DNA of 64,000 bases, taken from assembly GCF_017875275.1 (NCBI RefSeq), contig NZ_JAGGML010000001.1, forward strand, positions 3,369,001-3,433,000, given 5' to 3'. A model generated the notes under the pieces. It saw only the letters and a list, made by a program, of their open reading frames with translations. It made no database searches and had not been told where the DNA came from. Positions 3,133 through 29,834 of the stretch are shown here, piece after piece. The stretch's first letter is position 1, and each line of letters starts with the position of its first letter. A program made the position numbers and the translations under genes. Source of the stretch: Xanthobacter flavus. Its GTDB lineage: Bacteria; Pseudomonadota; Alphaproteobacteria; Rhizobiales; Xanthobacteraceae.

Positions 3133-3163
3133 AAAGGCCCGGCGCGCTGCGCCGGGCCTTTTT
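3133..3163. terminator. Intrinsic terminator between mucR and pckA (bidirectional)
   Basis: A perfect 13-bp stem, left arm AAAGGCCCGGCGC (3133-3145), loop GCT, right arm 3149-3161, with a T run to 3163 on the plus strand and matching A run for the minus strand. It sits 20 bases after the mucR stop and 24 bases beyond the pckA stop, so it can serve both convergent genes. Confidence 0.92.
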
Positions 3164-23323: not shown

Positions 23324-24169
23324 TCACCTGTGGGCGGTTATCTCCTGCCGCTGCCGGCCAAGCCCAGCGATTTCAAGTTCCACGACGTCCCCCGGGCGCA
23401 GCCATACCGGCTCGGGCTTCATCCCCATGCCGACACCGGGCGGGGTGCCGGTGGCGATGATGTCGCCGGGCAGGAGCGTCATGTAGCGGCTGCAATAGGC
23501 GATGAGCTCCCGGACGCCGAAGATCATCGTGCGGGTGTTGCCGGACTGCATGCGCCGGCCGTTCACGTCGAGCCGCATGTCGAGGTCCTGCGGATCGGGC
23601 ACCTCATCCTTGGTGACGAGGAACGGCCCGACGGGGCCGAACGTGTCGCAGCCCTTGCCCTTGTCCCACTGGGACGACTGCATCTGGAAAGCGCGCTCGG
23701 ACACGTCGTTCACCACGCAATAGCCGGCGACGTAGGCGAGCGCATCGTCTTCGTCTACGTAACGGGCGGTGGTGCCGATCACCACGCCCAGTTCGACTTC
23801 CCAGTCGAGCCGTGTGGAGTGCGGCGGCTGGATGATGGGATCGTCCGGCCCGGAAAGGGCGGACGGCGCCTTCAGGAAGATGATCGGCTCGCTCGGCACC
23901 GCCATGCCGGCTTCGGCCGCGTGGTCCGAATAATTCAGCCCGATGCAGATGAACTTGCTCATGCCGGCGAAGGGCACGCCGAGGCGGGGCTCGCCCTCCA
24001 CCAGCGGCAGGGTGGCAGGATCAATCGCGGCGAGGGCGGCGAGCCCCTCGGGCGACAGTTCGCGCGGGCCGATATCCGGGCGGACGCCGGAGAGATCGCG
24101 CAACCGGCCGTCGCGGTCGACAAGGGCCGGCATCTCGGCGCCGGGAGCACCAAAGCGGCAGAGCTTCAT
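23324..24169 (-). CDS. Fumarylacetoacetate hydrolase family protein
   Basis: A 281-aa FAH-fold enzyme (acylpyruvase / 2,4-diketo acid hydrolase group). Signatures: FICIGLNYSDHAAEAG, PIIFLKAPSALSGP, LDWEVELGVVIG (metal-binding Glu residues), GYCVVNDVSERAFQ and GDIIATGTPPGVGMG. The ATG at 24169 is preferred over the one at 24178, because the only ribosome-binding sequence (GAGG) abuts the latter but is 9 bases from the former. It is the last gene of the operon beginning at 28243; C-C hydrolysis of an acylpyruvate would suit a terminal step. Confidence 0.9.
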   Translation of the reverse strand: MKLCRFGAPGAEMPALVDRDGRLRDLSGVRPDIGPRELSPEGLAALAAIDPATLPLVEGEPRLGVPFAGMSKFICIGLNYSDHAAEAGMAVPSEPIIFLKAPSALSGPDDPIIQPPHSTRLDWEVELGVVIGTTARYVDEDDALAYVAGYCVVNDVSERAFQMQSSQWDKGKGCDTFGPVGPFLVTKDEVPDPQDLDMRLDVNGRRMQSGNTRTMIFGVRELIAYCSRYMTLLPGDIIATGTPPGVGMGMKPEPVWLRPGDVVELEIAGLGRQRQEITAHR

Positions 24170-24208
24170 GGCTGTCATCCTCGAAAAAAGGGCAAGGACC
24201 GATGGGGT

Positions 24209-24946
24209 TCAGGGGACCGTGGCGCCGGCATCCACCGTCCAGGCGGCGCCATTGACGTGGGCGGCTTCCGGCGAGAGGAGGAAGGCGACGACCGCCGCCA
24301 CGTCCTCCGGCGTGCCATAGGTGGCGGTGCCCGCCCTGCGAATGCCGCCGGCGGCCGCCGCCTTCTCGTCCAGCGCATGGATCATCCGTGTGTCCACGGG
24401 TCCGGGCAGGACGGCATTGACGCGGATGGCGGTGCCCGCGACATCCAGGGCTGCGACGCGGGTGAGGCCGAGCACCGCGTGCTTGCTCGCCACATATCCG
24501 GCGAGCCCTGGACGTCCCCGGATGGCGGAGGTGGAGGCCGTGGTGACCACCGCGCCCCGCCCCCTCGGCCGCATCCGCGCCAGCACGTGCTTGAGCCCGA
24601 GGAAGACGCCGCGCACATTCACCGCCATCACGGCATCGAAGGCATCGTCCGGGTAGTCGAAGATGGGTGCGACCGCCCCCTCGATGCCGGCATTGTTGGC
24701 GAACAGATCGATGGGACCGAGCTGCCCCTCGGTCTCGGCGACGAAGGCCGCGACCTCCGCCGGCGACGAGACGTCGGCCGCGAGGAAAAGGGCGGTGCGA
24801 CCCGCCCCTTCCACGAGCCGGGCCGTCTCGGCCCCGAGCGCCCCGTCGCGGTCGATCACCGCCACGTCATGGCCTGCGGCGGCCAGCCGCAGCGCGATGG
24901 CGCGGCCGATGCCGCCGCCACCGCCCGTGACCAGCGCGACGCTCAC
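24209..24946 (-). CDS. SDR family NAD(P)-dependent oxidoreductase
   Basis: A 245-aa classical short-chain dehydrogenase: cofactor motif TGGGGGIG, NNAGIEG, catalytic Ser in TTASTSAIRG, YVASKHAVLG with the Tyr-Lys pair, and PGPVDTRM. The start is a GTG at 24946 that overlaps the stop of the upstream binding-protein gene (GTGA), so the two are translationally coupled; no ATG lies nearby in frame. Substrate presumably a hydroxy or keto intermediate of the operon's pathway. Confidence 0.9.
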   Translation of the reverse strand: MSVALVTGGGGGIGRAIALRLAAAGHDVAVIDRDGALGAETARLVEGAGRTALFLAADVSSPAEVAAFVAETEGQLGPIDLFANNAGIEGAVAPIFDYPDDAFDAVMAVNVRGVFLGLKHVLARMRPRGRGAVVTTASTSAIRGRPGLAGYVASKHAVLGLTRVAALDVAGTAIRVNAVLPGPVDTRMIHALDEKAAAAGGIRRAGTATYGTPEDVAAVVAFLLSPEAAHVNGAAWTVDAGATVP

Positions 24947-26205
24947 GACTTGACCAGCGAACAGCCGCCTTCCGACAGCGGACGCCACACCTGCTCCGGC
25001 GGAATGGACTTCACCACCGTGTAATAGTCCCACGGATACTTGGATTCGGCCGGCGTCTTCACCTGGAACAGGAACATGGGGTGGATCTTGCGGCCGTCGA
25101 CGCGGATCGAGCCTTTGCCGAACAGCGGATCGTCGGTGGGCAGCGCCTTCATCTTGTCCACCACCGCCACGCCGTCCGTGGCCCCGCCAACGGCGGATAC
25201 GGCCTTGAGATAGTGCAGGGTCGAGGCATAGGCCCCGGCGTGCAGCGCGCTCGGATAGCGCCCGTCGTTGCGCGGCGCGAAGCGCTTGGTCCAGGCGCGG
25301 GTACCCTCGTTCAGGTCCCAATAGAAGGACTCCGTGAACTGGAGCCCCTGGGCCACCTTGAGCCCCAGCGAGTGGACATCGGTGACGTAGAGCACGGTGG
25401 CCACCAGGCGCTGCCCGCTCTGCGGGATGCCGAACTCCACCGCCTGCTTGATGGAATTGATGGTGTCGCCGCCGGCATTGATGAGGCCGACCACCTGCGC
25501 GCCCGACGCCTGCGCCTGCAGCAGGAAGGAGGAGAAATCCTGCGTATTGAGCGGCGCGCGGACGCCGCCGATCACCTTGCCGCCGGTCCGGGCGACCACG
25601 TTCCTGACGTCCTGCTCCATGGCATGGCCGAAGGCATAGTCGGCGGTGAGCGTGAACCAGTTCTTGCCGCCGGATTCCACCACCGCGGTGGCGGCGCCGG
25701 TGGCCAGGGCATAGGTGTCGTAGGTCCAATGCACCGTATTGGGCGAGCAAGCCTTTCCGGTGAGGTCCGAGGAGGAAGGACCGGAGGCGATCATCACCTT
25801 GTTCTTCTCGCGCGCGATGGAGGCCACGGCGAGCGCGACGGCCGAGTTCGGCACGTCCACGATCATGTCGACACCCTCGGTGTCGAACCACTTGCGGGCG
25901 ATGCCGGCTGCGACATCGGCCTTGTTCTGGTGATCGGCAGCGATCACCTCCACCTTGAGCGGCTTGCCGGCCGCGTTGAAATCCTCGACCGCCATCTGGG
26001 TCGCGACCACCGAGCCTTTGCCGGTCACGTCCGCATAGAGGCTGGACATGTCGGTGAGCACGCCGATCTTGATCGTCTTCTGGTCCTGCGCGAGGGCGAG
26101 GCCCGGCATCGCCAACATCAGCGCGCCGGCGGCTACCAGGGCTCGGCGTGAGGGCGATGGCGGGCGCCGGAGCCGGGCGAGGGTCTCGTCTGTGGTTCGG
26201 GTCAT
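24943..26205 (-). CDS. ABC transporter substrate-binding protein, LivK/branched-chain amino acid type
   Basis: A 420-aa periplasmic binding protein of the type I fold. The N terminus carries basic residues then ALVAAGALMLAMPGLALA, ending with a signal-peptidase-like ALA before QDQ. The mature part begins IKIGVLTDMSSLYADVTG, with DHQNKADVAAG, DVPNSAVALAV, TADYAFGH and NAGGDTINS. It shares these blocks with the binding protein at 33526 and is clearly paralogous to it. No permease or ATPase genes are in the operon, so it must use components encoded elsewhere. GGGAGGACTATCC precedes the ATG. Confidence 0.92.
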   Translation of the reverse strand: MTRTTDETLARLRRPPSPSRRALVAAGALMLAMPGLALAQDQKTIKIGVLTDMSSLYADVTGKGSVVATQMAVEDFNAAGKPLKVEVIAADHQNKADVAAGIARKWFDTEGVDMIVDVPNSAVALAVASIAREKNKVMIASGPSSSDLTGKACSPNTVHWTYDTYALATGAATAVVESGGKNWFTLTADYAFGHAMEQDVRNVVARTGGKVIGGVRAPLNTQDFSSFLLQAQASGAQVVGLINAGGDTINSIKQAVEFGIPQSGQRLVATVLYVTDVHSLGLKVAQGLQFTESFYWDLNEGTRAWTKRFAPRNDGRYPSALHAGAYASTLHYLKAVSAVGGATDGVAVVDKMKALPTDDPLFGKGSIRVDGRKIHPMFLFQVKTPAESKYPWDYYTVVKSIPPEQVWRPLSEGGCSLVKS

Positions 26206-26241: not shown

Positions 26242-27006
26242 TCAGGGAATGAGCCGCTTGAGCAGACGACGGTCCTCCACCGCAAAGCCGCCGCCGTATA
26301 CGTCGGAGACCATGAACTGGGCGGAGAGGACTTCCGGCTCCAGCTCGGTCAGCGGATCGAAGGCACTCGCGTGCAGGTTCATGACCGCGCGGCCGGCGAC
26401 AGGCGCGGAATAGGCGATGGGCGTGCGGCGGTAGACGACGTCGGCATAGGCCGTCTCCAGCCGCTCGGGGTGCGGCAGACGGCGCACATGGATTTCGCCG
26501 CCGGGCTGCTCGGCGCCGTCCACGAGCCGCACGACGGGGGCCTCGGGGTCCGGCGTGAACGACACTTCCGCGAGCGGCACGCCGCGCCGGATCACCGCGC
26601 TTTCGATGGCGCCGGTCTCGGCCTCGTCAAAGCGATAGGTGCAGTCCTTCTTGGTGTATCCGAACAGCTCGCGGCCGGCCGCGATGCCCATGGGGTCGGA
26701 GCAGTACATGTAGATGTGCGTCTGGGTGAACAGGTCCTCGTAGCGCACCGCCACCGTGACCATGAGGTCGAACATGCGGCCCTGGTGGAGCGACAGCGTG
26801 TGTCCCGGCGAGGCCATGAAGCGGAAAGCGACCCGGTCGTTCACCAGCTCGAACGGCGTGTCCGCGAGCAGAGCCCGCGTCTTCGCGGGATCGACGCGGG
26901 TCATCACCTCCAGCGTGCGCAAGGCGCATTCCCACTCCACCGGATAGGCCGGGGAATAAGGCGGGTTGACCCCGCTGCCGGGGTGCATCTGATACTTGCC
27001 GAACAT
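26242..27006 (-). CDS. Acetoacetate decarboxylase family protein
   Basis: A 254-aa ADC-fold protein. AAGRELFGYTKKDCTYRF contains the conserved Lys-Lys pair whose second element forms the Schiff base in acetoacetate decarboxylase. Many family members act as decarboxylases, aldolase-dehydratases or hydratases on keto acids, so activity on acetoacetate itself is not proved. GGAGAGGACCG precedes the ATG at 27006. It lies 46 bases after the 2-hydroxy-acid dehydrogenase gene and 36 bases before the binding-protein gene. Confidence 0.85.
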   Translation of the reverse strand: MFGKYQMHPGSGVNPPYSPAYPVEWECALRTLEVMTRVDPAKTRALLADTPFELVNDRVAFRFMASPGHTLSLHQGRMFDLMVTVAVRYEDLFTQTHIYMYCSDPMGIAAGRELFGYTKKDCTYRFDEAETGAIESAVIRRGVPLAEVSFTPDPEAPVVRLVDGAEQPGGEIHVRRLPHPERLETAYADVVYRRTPIAYSAPVAGRAVMNLHASAFDPLTELEPEVLSAQFMVSDVYGGGFAVEDRRLLKRLIP

Positions 27007-27052
27007 CGGTCCTCTCCTTTTATGGCTTGCCCTGGCGCGCGGGGCTTGTCGT

Positions 27053-28243
27053 TCAGACGGGCGCCGCAAGGCGCGCGGCGGGTTCGGAATAAGCGGGCGC
27101 GTCCAGCAACGCGCGCGCGGCGTCGGCCGTGTCGGTGATGCCGCACAGGGCCATGGTCAGGTCGAGTTCCCGGCGGATGAGTTCGAGGCAGCGCGTCACT
27201 CCCGCCTCGCCCATGGCCCCGAGGCCGTAGAGAAACGCCCGGCCGATGAGCACGCCGCCTGCGCCCAGCGCCAGCGCCTTCAGCACGTCCTGTCCAGAGC
27301 GGACGCCGCCATCAAACAGCACCTCGGTGCGCGCGCCCACCGCCTCGGCGATAGCCGGCAGCGCGGAGATGCTGGACGGCGCTCCGTCGAGCTGGCGGCC
27401 GCCGTGGTTGGACACGACGATGGCATCCACCCCCGCGCGGGCAGCCGCCCGGGCGTCCTCGGGGTCCATGATGCCCTTCACGATGAGCTTGCGGTCCCAA
27501 AGGCGCCGCAGCCACCGCACGTGCTCCCAGCTGAGGGTCTGATCGAACTGCTCGGACACCCAGTGGGCCAGAGAGGAGGCATCGCTCACCCCCTCCACGT
27601 GGCCCACGATGTTGCGGAAGGTGCGCCGCTGCGTCCGCGCCATGTTCAGGCACCAGCGCGGCTTGGTGGCGAGGTTGACGAGATTGCGCAGCGTGGGGCG
27701 CGGCGGGGTCGAGAGCCCGTTCTTGATGTCGAGGTGGCGCTGGCCCTGCACGGGCAAATCCATGGTGAGCACCAGCGCCGAGCAGCCTGCGTCATGGGCG
27801 CGGGCGACGAGCCGTTCCATGAAGGCCCGGTCCTTCATCAGATAGAGCTGGAACCAGAAGGGGCGCGAAGTGTGGGCGGCGACGTCCTCGATGGAGCATA
27901 CACTGACGGTGGACAGGGTGAAGGGCACGCCGAACCGCTCCGCGGCGCGCGCGGCGAGAATCTCCCCGTCCGCCCACTGCATCCCGGCAAGACCGGTCGG
28001 GGCGAGCGCCACCGGCATGGCGACATCCTCGCCCAGCATGCGGCCGGAGAGGCTGCGCCGGGAGATGTCGATGCCGACGCGCTGGCGCAGGCGAATGGCA
28101 GCAAGGCCTTGCTCATTCGCGCGGTAGGTTGCACCGGTCCAGGAGCCGCAATCCACGTAGTCGTAGAACATGCGCGGCACCCGGCGGGCGGCCAGGCGGC
28201 GAAGGTCCTCGACCGAGGTGATGGGCGCGTCCGGGAAGATCAC
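27053..28243 (-). CDS. FMN-dependent alpha-hydroxy-acid dehydrogenase (LldD/glycolate oxidase family)
   Basis: A 396-aa TIM-barrel flavoenzyme that oxidises an L-2-hydroxy acid to a 2-oxo acid. Motifs: MFYDYVDCGSW, LAPTGLAGMQWADGE, WFQLYLMKDR, LTMDLPVQGQRHLD, VKGIMDPEDA, and SNHGGRQLDGAPSS with the catalytic His and Arg. DGGVRSGQDVLKALALGA forms the FMN phosphate site. The start is a GTG at 28243 with CAGGA upstream. It is the first gene of the GntR-controlled operon, 25 bases from the edge of the long palindrome. Lactate, glycolate or mandelate cannot be distinguished by eye. Confidence 0.92.
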   Translation of the reverse strand: MIFPDAPITSVEDLRRLAARRVPRMFYDYVDCGSWTGATYRANEQGLAAIRLRQRVGIDISRRSLSGRMLGEDVAMPVALAPTGLAGMQWADGEILAARAAERFGVPFTLSTVSVCSIEDVAAHTSRPFWFQLYLMKDRAFMERLVARAHDAGCSALVLTMDLPVQGQRHLDIKNGLSTPPRPTLRNLVNLATKPRWCLNMARTQRRTFRNIVGHVEGVSDASSLAHWVSEQFDQTLSWEHVRWLRRLWDRKLIVKGIMDPEDARAAARAGVDAIVVSNHGGRQLDGAPSSISALPAIAEAVGARTEVLFDGGVRSGQDVLKALALGAGGVLIGRAFLYGLGAMGEAGVTRCLELIRRELDLTMALCGITDTADAARALLDAPAYSEPAARLAAPV

Positions 28244-28267: not shown

Positions 28268-28297
28268 AAAACGTACTTTGGATTCAAAGTACGTTTT
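28268..28297. promoter_or_regulatory. Perfect 30-bp palindrome, probable GntR operator
   Basis: Left arm AAAACGTACTTTG (28268-28280), spacer GATT, then the exact reverse complement CAAAGTACGTTTT (28285-28297). It lies in the divergent gap between the dehydrogenase operon (start 28243) and the GntR regulator (start 28410). A 13-bp perfect arm in GC-rich DNA is not chance. Its location close to the operon start suggests repression by overlap with the promoter; a terminator is unlikely because neither gene ends here. Confidence 0.85.
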
Positions 28298-28409
28298 ATG
28301 TTAGAAGCCATGCGACGGGTCCTGTCAAGGGTGCGGACCTCTTGCATCGGGCTGTCGCTGCCGATAGGCGCGAACGATGCCGCGCGGAACCGGGAGAACG
28401 GAGCAGGCC

Positions 28410-29399
28410 ATGGGGGTTGAAAAAGCCGGCAAGGACGCTGACGCCGCGGCGGGCGGCTCCCTTCAGGACCGGACCTATCTCCAGCTCCGCGAGATGATCG
28501 CCGCCGGCCAGATCCGTCCCGGCGAGCGCCTGCTGGAGGCGGAGGTGGTCCGCGCTTTCGGCATCAGTCGGTCGCCGGCCCGACAGGCGCTGGAGCGGCT
28601 GCGCCGGGATGGCGTGGTGGAACCGCTCGAAGGCCGTGGCTACCGGGTTCCCGGCGGCGCACCATCCGACACGGCGGTGCTCGATCCCGTGGACATGTCG
28701 GCGCCCCGGCAGTGGGAGCGGATGTATCAAGAGGTCGAGCAGGAATTGTTCGTACGCACCCTGTTCGGTTCGGTGCGTCTGAACGAACTGCGTCTGGCCG
28801 AGCATTTCGGCGTCAGCCGGACGGTGACCCGGGACCTGCTGGCGCGGATGCACGGCGTCGGCCTCATCGCCAAGGATCATGCCGGCCACTGGATCGCCGA
28901 GCAGATGACGCCGGATCGCATCCGCCATCTCTACGAGCTGCGCTGCCTGCTGGAGCCGGCGGCCTTGCGCCAGGCGGCGCCCCGCGTGCCCGCCGCCGTG
29001 CTGGCGGACATGCGCGCCCGCGTCCTCGCCACTCGCGCAGAAACACCCATCAGCAGCACGCGCTTCGACGAGGCGGAAACCGATCTTCACATCACGCTGC
29101 TCGGCTATTGCGCGAACCCGGAGATCATGCGCGCCCTGAAGCGCACGCACCTCCTGTTCGGCCCCACCCGCCACCTCTTCGATCCGTTCCTGGGCATTCC
29201 CATCCGGTTGATCGTAGCGGCGCTGGACGAGCACATCGAGATCATCGACCTTCTGCTGGAGGCCCAGCCGGAGCGGGCCGCGCAGGCCCTTGAGGCCCAT
29301 CTGAGGGACGCCGTCGAGCGCTGGCTCCGCCGCTTCGAGATCACCGCCAAGGGCAAGCCGATCCCCGTCCCGTCCTATCTCCAGGCCGTCGCGGACTGA
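28410..29399 (+). CDS. GntR/FadR-type regulator with two winged-helix domains
   Basis: A 329-aa regulator. A first GntR winged helix (about residues 20-85) reads LREMIAAGQIRPGERLLEAE and FGISRSPARQALERLRRDG. A second, more diverged one (about 100-165) reads LFGSVRLNELRLAEHFGVSR and TVTRDLLARMHGVGLI. An FCD-type ligand domain (about 170-310) follows, with LYELRCLLEPAALR and DLHITLLGYCANPE. Ordinary FadR-type proteins have one winged helix and about 220-250 residues. The ATG at 28410 is preceded by GGAGCAGGCC. It is divergent from the dehydrogenase operon across the 30-bp palindrome. Confidence 0.9.
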   Translation: MGVEKAGKDADAAAGGSLQDRTYLQLREMIAAGQIRPGERLLEAEVVRAFGISRSPARQALERLRRDGVVEPLEGRGYRVPGGAPSDTAVLDPVDMSAPRQWERMYQEVEQELFVRTLFGSVRLNELRLAEHFGVSRTVTRDLLARMHGVGLIAKDHAGHWIAEQMTPDRIRHLYELRCLLEPAALRQAAPRVPAAVLADMRARVLATRAETPISSTRFDEAETDLHITLLGYCANPEIMRALKRTHLLFGPTRHLFDPFLGIPIRLIVAALDEHIEIIDLLLEAQPERAAQALEAHLRDAVERWLRRFEITAKGKPIPVPSYLQAVAD

Positions 29400-29451: not shown

Positions 29452-29630
29452 CGATTTCAGATACACCAGGCTGATACCTGCAGGGCATGAAGGGACTGAA
29501 GAGTCGGAGAAAGCCGACGAAGAAGTACTCGCCAAAACGAACGGCATGGGCCAAGTATGCCGAGCGCGTTGGTGAGAATACCGGGGTCTGGTTATTTTAC
29601 CTCCGCGCCAAAAAAGGCGGGGGAGGCCCC

Positions 29631-29834
29631 ATGATACCGCATCCTTGCACCCGATTCCCGTGCCCCTCGCCAGGCTGCGAACACTGCGACCCGCTCATCA
29701 TGAGCCTGCCTGTCCCGGATACTACGCTGCCGCCCTACTGCCCCGGATGGGAATGCCCGCGCTGCCACAAGATCAATGCGCGGGGAGTGGGGGAATGCGA
29801 TTGCGAACCGCGAAAAAAAGAAGGCGAGAAATAG
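29631..29834 (+). CDS. Small cysteine-rich zinc-ribbon-like protein
   Basis: A 67-aa ORF with GGGGGAGGCCCC directly before the ATG at 29631. Cysteines are arranged CTRFPC, CEHC, then CPGWECPRCHK and CDC near the C terminus, a pattern like the small zinc-ribbon proteins found in phages and mobile elements. The frame stays open upstream to an ATG at 29487 (115 aa, lysine-rich), but the internal start has the better ribosome site. It stands alone between the GntR gene and the sigma-54 activator. No function is known to me; existence as a gene is likely but not proved. Confidence 0.5.
   Translation: MIPHPCTRFPCPSPGCEHCDPLIMSLPVPDTTLPPYCPGWECPRCHKINARGVGECDCEPRKKEGEK

Follow-up and report, generated by a model that had tools for sequence, protein, structure and literature searches.

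A two-headed GntR/FCD regulator of Xanthobacter flavus and a candidate four-part 26-bp operator in its divergent gap

GntR proteins form a very large group of bacterial regulators, in which chains with one DNA-binding head pair; NanR, for example, is single-headed. TM0439 (3sxy_A) is an FCD regulator with a single head. A regulator of the VanR group of FCD/GntR proteins, Atu1419 (PDB 6ZA3), binds the operator ATGTATACAT, a 10-bp palindrome of which G3 is essential, as described in PMC7797058. Groups of GntR proteins also possess weaker extra half-sites 7-12 nt from the operator centre, according to PMC4494728; a term search of the main text of that paper for a second, tandem or two HTH found nothing. 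A full-text literature search, with most subscription journals outside its range, found no paper on a two-headed GntR/FCD protein among those listed, judged by their titles and the opening of their abstracts, which is weak evidence.

The regulator and its divergent gap

The window analysed here is a stretch of 64,000 nucleotides from the genome of X. flavus, which comprises 5,354,025 bases in a single contig. It encodes a GntR regulator with the following parts:

28410..29399, plus strand: two-headed GntR/FCD regulator, 329 aa, with an alternative upstream ATG at 28377 (ORF, Pfam, model)
28461..28655, plus strand: HTH1, GntR winged helix, residues ~18-82, with E43, R54 and R58 (Pfam, model, structure comparison, alignment)
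28710..28901, plus strand: HTH2, second GntR-type winged helix, residues ~101-164, with E126, R137 and R141 (model, structure comparison, alignment)
28929..29306, plus strand: FCD effector/dimerisation domain (Pfam, model)

Pfam PF00392 matches HTH1 only in this protein (62.7 bits against a cut-off of 27), and PF07729 identifies the FCD domain (68.7 bits against 24.3). An AlphaFold2 model (mean pLDDT 83, nine sequences) has winged-helix topology at both ~18-82 and ~101-164. Modelled residues 102-311, comprising HTH2 and FCD, align with TM0439 over 198 of 201 residues (Z 20.1, rmsd 2.5 Å), while residues 12-81, comprising HTH1, align with the DNA-binding domain of AraR, 5d4r_B, over 70 residues (Z 10.7, rmsd 1.5 Å). 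HTH1 likewise matches BusR, 7oz3_A, over 68 residues (Z 11.5, rmsd 1.3 Å). The two tandem winged helices that a sequence-only reading had placed before the FCD domain are borne out: the model gives the second region a winged-helix fold, and PF00392 matches twice in six of nine relatives scanned.

Identity between HTH1 and HTH2 within the protein is 25% over 51 residues, and both heads retain the same contact residues. In an alignment of 81 proteins (the window protein and 80 homologues), E43 of HTH1 is kept in 80 and R54 and R58 in all 81; in HTH2, E126 is kept in 76 and replaced by Asp in five, and R137 and R141 are kept in all 81. The Glu/Arg/Arg sets of both heads have 11- and 4-residue spacings, the same as Glu34/Arg45/Arg49 of Atu1419. 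The protein shares with the FCD/VanR group an FCD domain and an N-terminal GntR winged helix and departs from it, according to the model, in having more than one winged helix per chain. It scores below the curated cut-offs for NanR (NCBIfam PRK03837, 62.4 bits against 260) and for PhnR of Burkholderia (TIGR03338, 68.3 bits against 271.5). Histidines H227, H275 and H297 are invariant across nine sequences and are presumably of the kind that binds metal in FCD domains.

The regulator is transcribed away from a run of minus-strand genes, and the gap between them contains a palindrome:

28268..28297, no strand: exact 13-4-13 palindrome (inverted-repeat search, shuffles)
27053..28243, minus strand: FMN-dependent 2-hydroxyacid dehydrogenase, first gene facing the regulator (ORF, Pfam, NCBIfam)
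26242..27069, minus strand: acetoacetate decarboxylase-like ORF of the same gene run (ORF, Pfam)
24943..26205, minus strand: periplasmic substrate-binding protein, Peripla_BP_6 (ORF, Pfam)
24209..24997, minus strand: short-chain dehydrogenase
23324..24178, minus strand: fumarylacetoacetate-hydrolase family protein

The dehydrogenase scores above the cut-off of the PRK11197 L-lactate dehydrogenase subfamily and below that of LldD. On the other side of the regulator, a 115-aa open frame at 29487-29834 contains several cysteine pairs and has no Pfam match up to E 0.1.

The arms of the palindrome (28268-28280 and 28285-28297) are 13 nt long, fully complementary and separated by 4 nt. Only two inverted repeats in the 64-kb window, this one included, have arms of at least 13 and a loop of at most 14, compared with a mean of 0.09 in Markov-1 shuffles (n=100), of which seven contained at least one. 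The other exact repeat lies at 3133-3161 and has 13-bp arms and a loop of 3. GC content of the palindrome is 30%, against 68% for the window. It is separated by 24 bases from the GTG of the dehydrogenase (28243, minus strand) and by 112 bases from the ATG of the regulator (28410, plus strand), and a 96%-identical orthologue has it with one mismatch. A consensus scan at the palindrome and the dehydrogenase start found no sigma-70-like promoter. From the position of the palindrome, a bound regulator could plausibly block transcription and thereby repress the dehydrogenase.

A four-part site beside two-headed homologues

A single peptide pattern, run against one genome for each species, yielded 220 candidate relatives, of which the best 80 were analysed. 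Xanthobacter sp. YC-JY1 is the closest named relative among these best 80 of 220 (96% protein identity). Judging from record titles, the family presumably occurs in both Alpha- and Betaproteobacteria, and no regulator among the 80 is known to be characterised. A class-wide search, in which up to seven candidates were scored per genome and membership was set at E <= 1e-30, found a member in at least six of 289 genomes, the host genome counted. The divergent genes of eight other members belong, by Pfam, to FMN_dh (one), Ldh_2 (four), SDR (two) and FAH (one), suggesting that the family controls the use of hydroxyacids or sugar acids; of the ten neighbours scanned, that of L040 had no Pfam match and that of L026 was downstream rather than divergent.

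Plain palindrome searches upstream of the homologues missed most sites because these are not strictly symmetric. Most close relatives listed have a centre TGGATKCA or TGGACGCA (the search itself required such a centre) flanked by CGTAC-like arms, a layout that generalises to GT-N4-TG-N4-CA-N4-AC. The exact pattern occurs upstream of 41 of the 80 regulators (42 matches). Outside these stretches the loci contain five matches in 663,773 bp, and reading them backwards gives four in 696,725 bp. When the outer gap was varied from 1 to 8 and the inner gap from 2 to 7, the 4/4 combination occurred in 41 loci and each of the other 47 of the 48 combinations in 0 to 3.

A first matrix drew on just ten sites, all of them from close relatives. 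A symmetric matrix was then derived from 37 distinct sites, with the own-locus site left out and those of close relatives kept; the L092 site was excluded from training as a likely chance match. With this leave-one-out matrix, 64 of 80 upstream regions scored above the 99th percentile of 1186 equal-length null blocks. The refined matrix (>6 bits, -560..+10 of the start) found a site in 65 of 80 loci. Across 697 kb of the same loci read backwards, 24 matches exceeded 6 bits and none scored more than 13.4, so one or two of the 65 sites may be chance.

The site lies elsewhere in the loci L048 (29.4 bits) and L088 (32.4 bits), while L034, L035, L037, L039 and L043 each have two sites 4.5-4.9 kb upstream, 118-164 bp apart, the better one scoring 26.8-30.9 bits and the other 22.5-25.5. 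The paired sites were present in all five readable upstream stretches of these regulators (L150-L154, belonging to L035, L037, L039, L034 and L043, respectively). Those of L150 lie at the upstream end of a same-strand ORF run that ends with the regulator (ORFs were listed in two loci). The pairs look as if arranged to allow looping or cooperative binding. In all, 72 of the 80 homologues with two heads have a long dyad whose geometry is fixed, close to the regulator start in 65 and farther away in seven; the long palindrome that the sequence-only reading had proposed to look for beside such homologues recurs there as a 26-bp site.

No site was found in eight of the 80 loci (L028, L030, L036, L038, L051, L052, L054 and L056). 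L030 and L036 stop at a contig edge, and the contig of L038 was not reached. The regulators of L051, L052, L054 and L056 are Xanthobacter proteins of ~40% identity; a scan of 10 kb upstream in L051 found nothing above 5.0 bits. Of the 17 family-level loci, nine have the site (L002, L003, L004, L005 and L010-L014), and in L006-L009 and L015-L018 it was not found in the stretches read. The site of L005 lies ~3.0 kb upstream and was found in L021 (35.7 bits), where a regulator outside the 80, 49% identical by tblastn, has AATGTACAGTGGATGCAATGTACATT at that distance. The same geometry recurs at 36-41% protein identity. A strong site of L027 (27.5 bits), one of the five exact-pattern matches outside the upstream stretches, is located ~4.1 kb downstream of the regulator start and is a candidate second target. 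L062 and L068 have second sites of 22 bits just after the gene, 1036 and 1013 bases past the regulator start, respectively.

In the host genome, a scan with up to three mismatches found four places: the window site, the site of a paralogue and two weak ones that were not counted (backward control, two per strand). The second two-headed regulator (L022 8816, L014) has its own site of 24.9 bits before a divergent 425-aa ORF; in the related L072, the divergent gene is Ldh_2 by Pfam. Both two-headed FCD regulators of the genome (L123 and L129) have the exact pattern in their loci, and it is absent from the loci of the 24 other FCD regulators (~3.4 kb each, 80,814 bp in total). These controls were taken as single-headed: in 22 the pre-FCD frame is too short for two heads, and L120 and L126 have one GntR match immediately before FCD. 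L133, which is partial, is not among the 24. The refined matrix scored at best 15.5 bits (L126) and next 11.7 in the control loci, so weak look-alikes occur. As a genome-wide predictor, a looser pattern with one mismatch did not exceed chance (117 forward and 165 backward matches in 14 genomes); it was used only to locate sites beside regulators, which the matrix then confirmed. The single-headed L109 family of the same genome (16 loci, 13 used) has a core TTTGTATACAA and flanking conserved bases, by eye in a different register from those of the two-headed family. A further single-headed family, L108, was dropped as a control since its motif looked like conserved coding sequence.

Across the family, the site has the 26-bp consensus AAYGTMYWNTGTRYACANWRKACRTT. 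In the window it comprises:

28270..28295, no strand: 26-bp operator in the family register, AACGTACTTTGGATTCAAAGTACGTT, predicted (matrix scan)
28270..28276, plus strand: left outer half-site AACGTAC (family AAYGTMY), putative HTH1 contact (site alignment)
28277..28288, no strand: inner pair TTTGGATTCAAA (TG-N4-CA, family TGTRYACA), putative contact of the HTH2 pair (site alignment, Atu1419 operator)
28289..28295, minus strand: right outer half-site GTACGTT, putative contact of the second HTH1 (site alignment)

This site scores 30.6 bits, and the runner-up in the 64-kb window only 6.0. The half-site derived from 68 distinct sites reads A A Y G T M Y W N T G T R, with conservation of 99% for G at position 4, 92% for T10 and 96% for G11. 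The outer and inner key guanines share a strand and lie 7 bp apart, so an arm consists of two GT-type half-sites in direct repeat and not of one long uniform half-site. Nor is GATT a free spacer, since the four central bases belong to the operator, whose centre in the family is TGTRYACA. Inner G28280 and C28285 have a spacing of 5, equal to that of G3 and C8 in the Atu1419 palindrome; the outer guanine is 9.5 nt from the centre. Per half, the outer columns, which have their own consensus, hold 8.3 bits and the inner columns 6.7; when the inner matrix is applied to the outer box, the score is 0.43 of that of the inner one. Of the 73 sites, 42 have the four dinucleotides intact, and the other 31 lack at least one. 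The perfect 30-bp palindrome is real at this locus, and its perfection is no family rule: across the 73 sites a mean of 8.2 of 13 pairs are symmetric, and the window site, with 12 of 13 in the family frame, is the highest, an extreme rather than a typical case.

Possible modes of reading by four heads

The two folds (in the model), the conserved contact residues, the four-part geometry and the position beside two-headed regulators are computed observations. We regard it as probable that the facing regulator uses the palindrome as its operator and that a dimer with four heads reads its 26 bp, HTH2 on the inner and HTH1 on the outer half-sites. An FCD-held dimer, presumably one per site, would present four heads to the DNA. 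HTH2, which connects directly to the FCD dimer, would read the inner TG-N4-CA pair, and HTH1 the outer AAYGTMY pair, whose key guanine lies 7 bp farther out, so that each chain would use both of its heads to read the direct repeat in one arm. At this locus, the bound dimer would lie across the region where the dehydrogenase operon starts and would keep the operon, and probably the regulator gene too, repressed until a metabolite binds FCD.

A second arrangement, which we consider unlikely, is that the regulator binds with only two heads per dimer touching DNA, a second dimer or a tetramer filling the outer half-sites and HTH1 serving oligomerisation or another role. Precedents of this kind have been described: additional subunits have been suggested for the extra half-sites in GntR groups, and SdhR has a 26-bp palindrome (PMC4494728), Atu1419 is a tetramer of two DNA-binding dimers (PMC7797058), and BusR binds GAC-N22-GTC as a tetramer (PMC8517857). 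Flanking conserved bases also accompany the core of the single-headed L109 family, and the relative score of the outer box under the inner matrix is near the half reported in PMC4494728. Covariation gives HTH1 no special tie to the outer box: partial distance correlations with the outer half-site are 0.09 for HTH1 given HTH2 and 0.21 for HTH2 given HTH1, and with the inner half-site 0.23 and 0.43, respectively. However, the DNA-contact arginines of HTH1, both invariant, would be superfluous in a non-DNA role, the outer box matches the inner in strength and follows a consensus of its own, unlike the weaker published boxes, and the gap combinations indicate rigid spacing. What probability this arrangement keeps, it owes mainly to the L109 flanks, which fit the published weaker half-sites.

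Still less probable is an exchange of the heads, with HTH1 on the inner pair and HTH2 on the outer. The covariation values are compatible with it, and Pfam marks HTH1 as the more canonical of the two GntR heads; however, HTH2 occupies the place next to FCD that the sole head has in single-headed FCD proteins, and one such protein, Atu1419, binds an inner-type 10-bp site (PMC7797058). It is very improbable that the palindrome is unrelated to the two-headed protein and acts as a terminator or attenuator hairpin in RNA, or as the site of another regulator: a 13-bp hairpin could form and five T follow on the minus strand, but a terminator scan at the palindrome found no terminator-like site, the palindrome lies before genes and not after them, and the same geometry recurs at two-headed regulators that face divergent genes of different kinds (FMN_dh, Ldh_2, SDR, FAH).

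Returning to the four-headed dimer, the finding that relatives in many bacteria adjoin the same 26-letter site suggests a link between the doubling of the head and the length of the site. The proposed co-evolution of long operator and doubled domain holds as co-occurrence, not as co-evolution, because all members found belong to one family. With slightly better than even confidence, we propose that duplication of the head in one GntR chain turned a VanR-type operator of 10-12 bp into a 26-bp operator of four half-sites, in which the chain reads a direct repeat of 7-bp period, the dimer mirrors it, and ~30 bits specify roughly one site per regulator per genome. If so, the two-headed family would have hard-wired into a single polypeptide what other GntR proteins have as weak flanking boxes.

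Comparison with known systems

Two intact heads per chain with a matching four-part operator would be a simple way to lengthen a DNA address. For 72 of the 80 regulators, the sites supply predicted binding positions and, through these, candidate target genes, and the question of what reads the additional half-sites of GntR proteins becomes testable in one protein.

A close counterpart is Atu1419, in which FCD also follows directly after a GntR winged helix, the contacts are Glu/Arg/Arg, and the operator has the inner TG-N4-CA geometry. In contrast to the two heads and single 26-bp site here, Atu1419 has one head per chain and binds two separate 10-bp palindromes as a tetramer (PMC7797058). BusR, another GntR protein, similarly places several winged helices of one complex on one bipartite, rigidly spaced operator; however, its heads come from a tetramer, and it has a coiled coil and an RCK_C domain instead of FCD and the operator GAC-N22-GTC (PMC8517857). 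In the window, we found no RCK_C-type Pfam match up to E 0.1 and no GAC or GTC in the 30-bp palindrome.

A long operator is not in itself a mark of two-headed proteins, since multi-box sites also occur in GntR groups and SdhR has a palindrome of the same length (PMC4494728). The additional symmetry of the long SdhR palindrome resembles that seen here, but SdhR belongs to the HutC subfamily, lacks FCD and is treated as an exception in that paper. The paper also describes direct-repeat half-sites for NanR and other GntR proteins, as in each arm here, but those sites are given without the inverted arrangement of the present one. The extra half-sites of the GntR groups are weaker and lie at 7-12 nt, a range that includes the position of our outer guanine, whereas the outer half-site here is of full strength and would be read by a second head (PMC4494728). 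The parts of the system are of known kinds; the duplicated head and the full-strength four-part operator together appear to be new.
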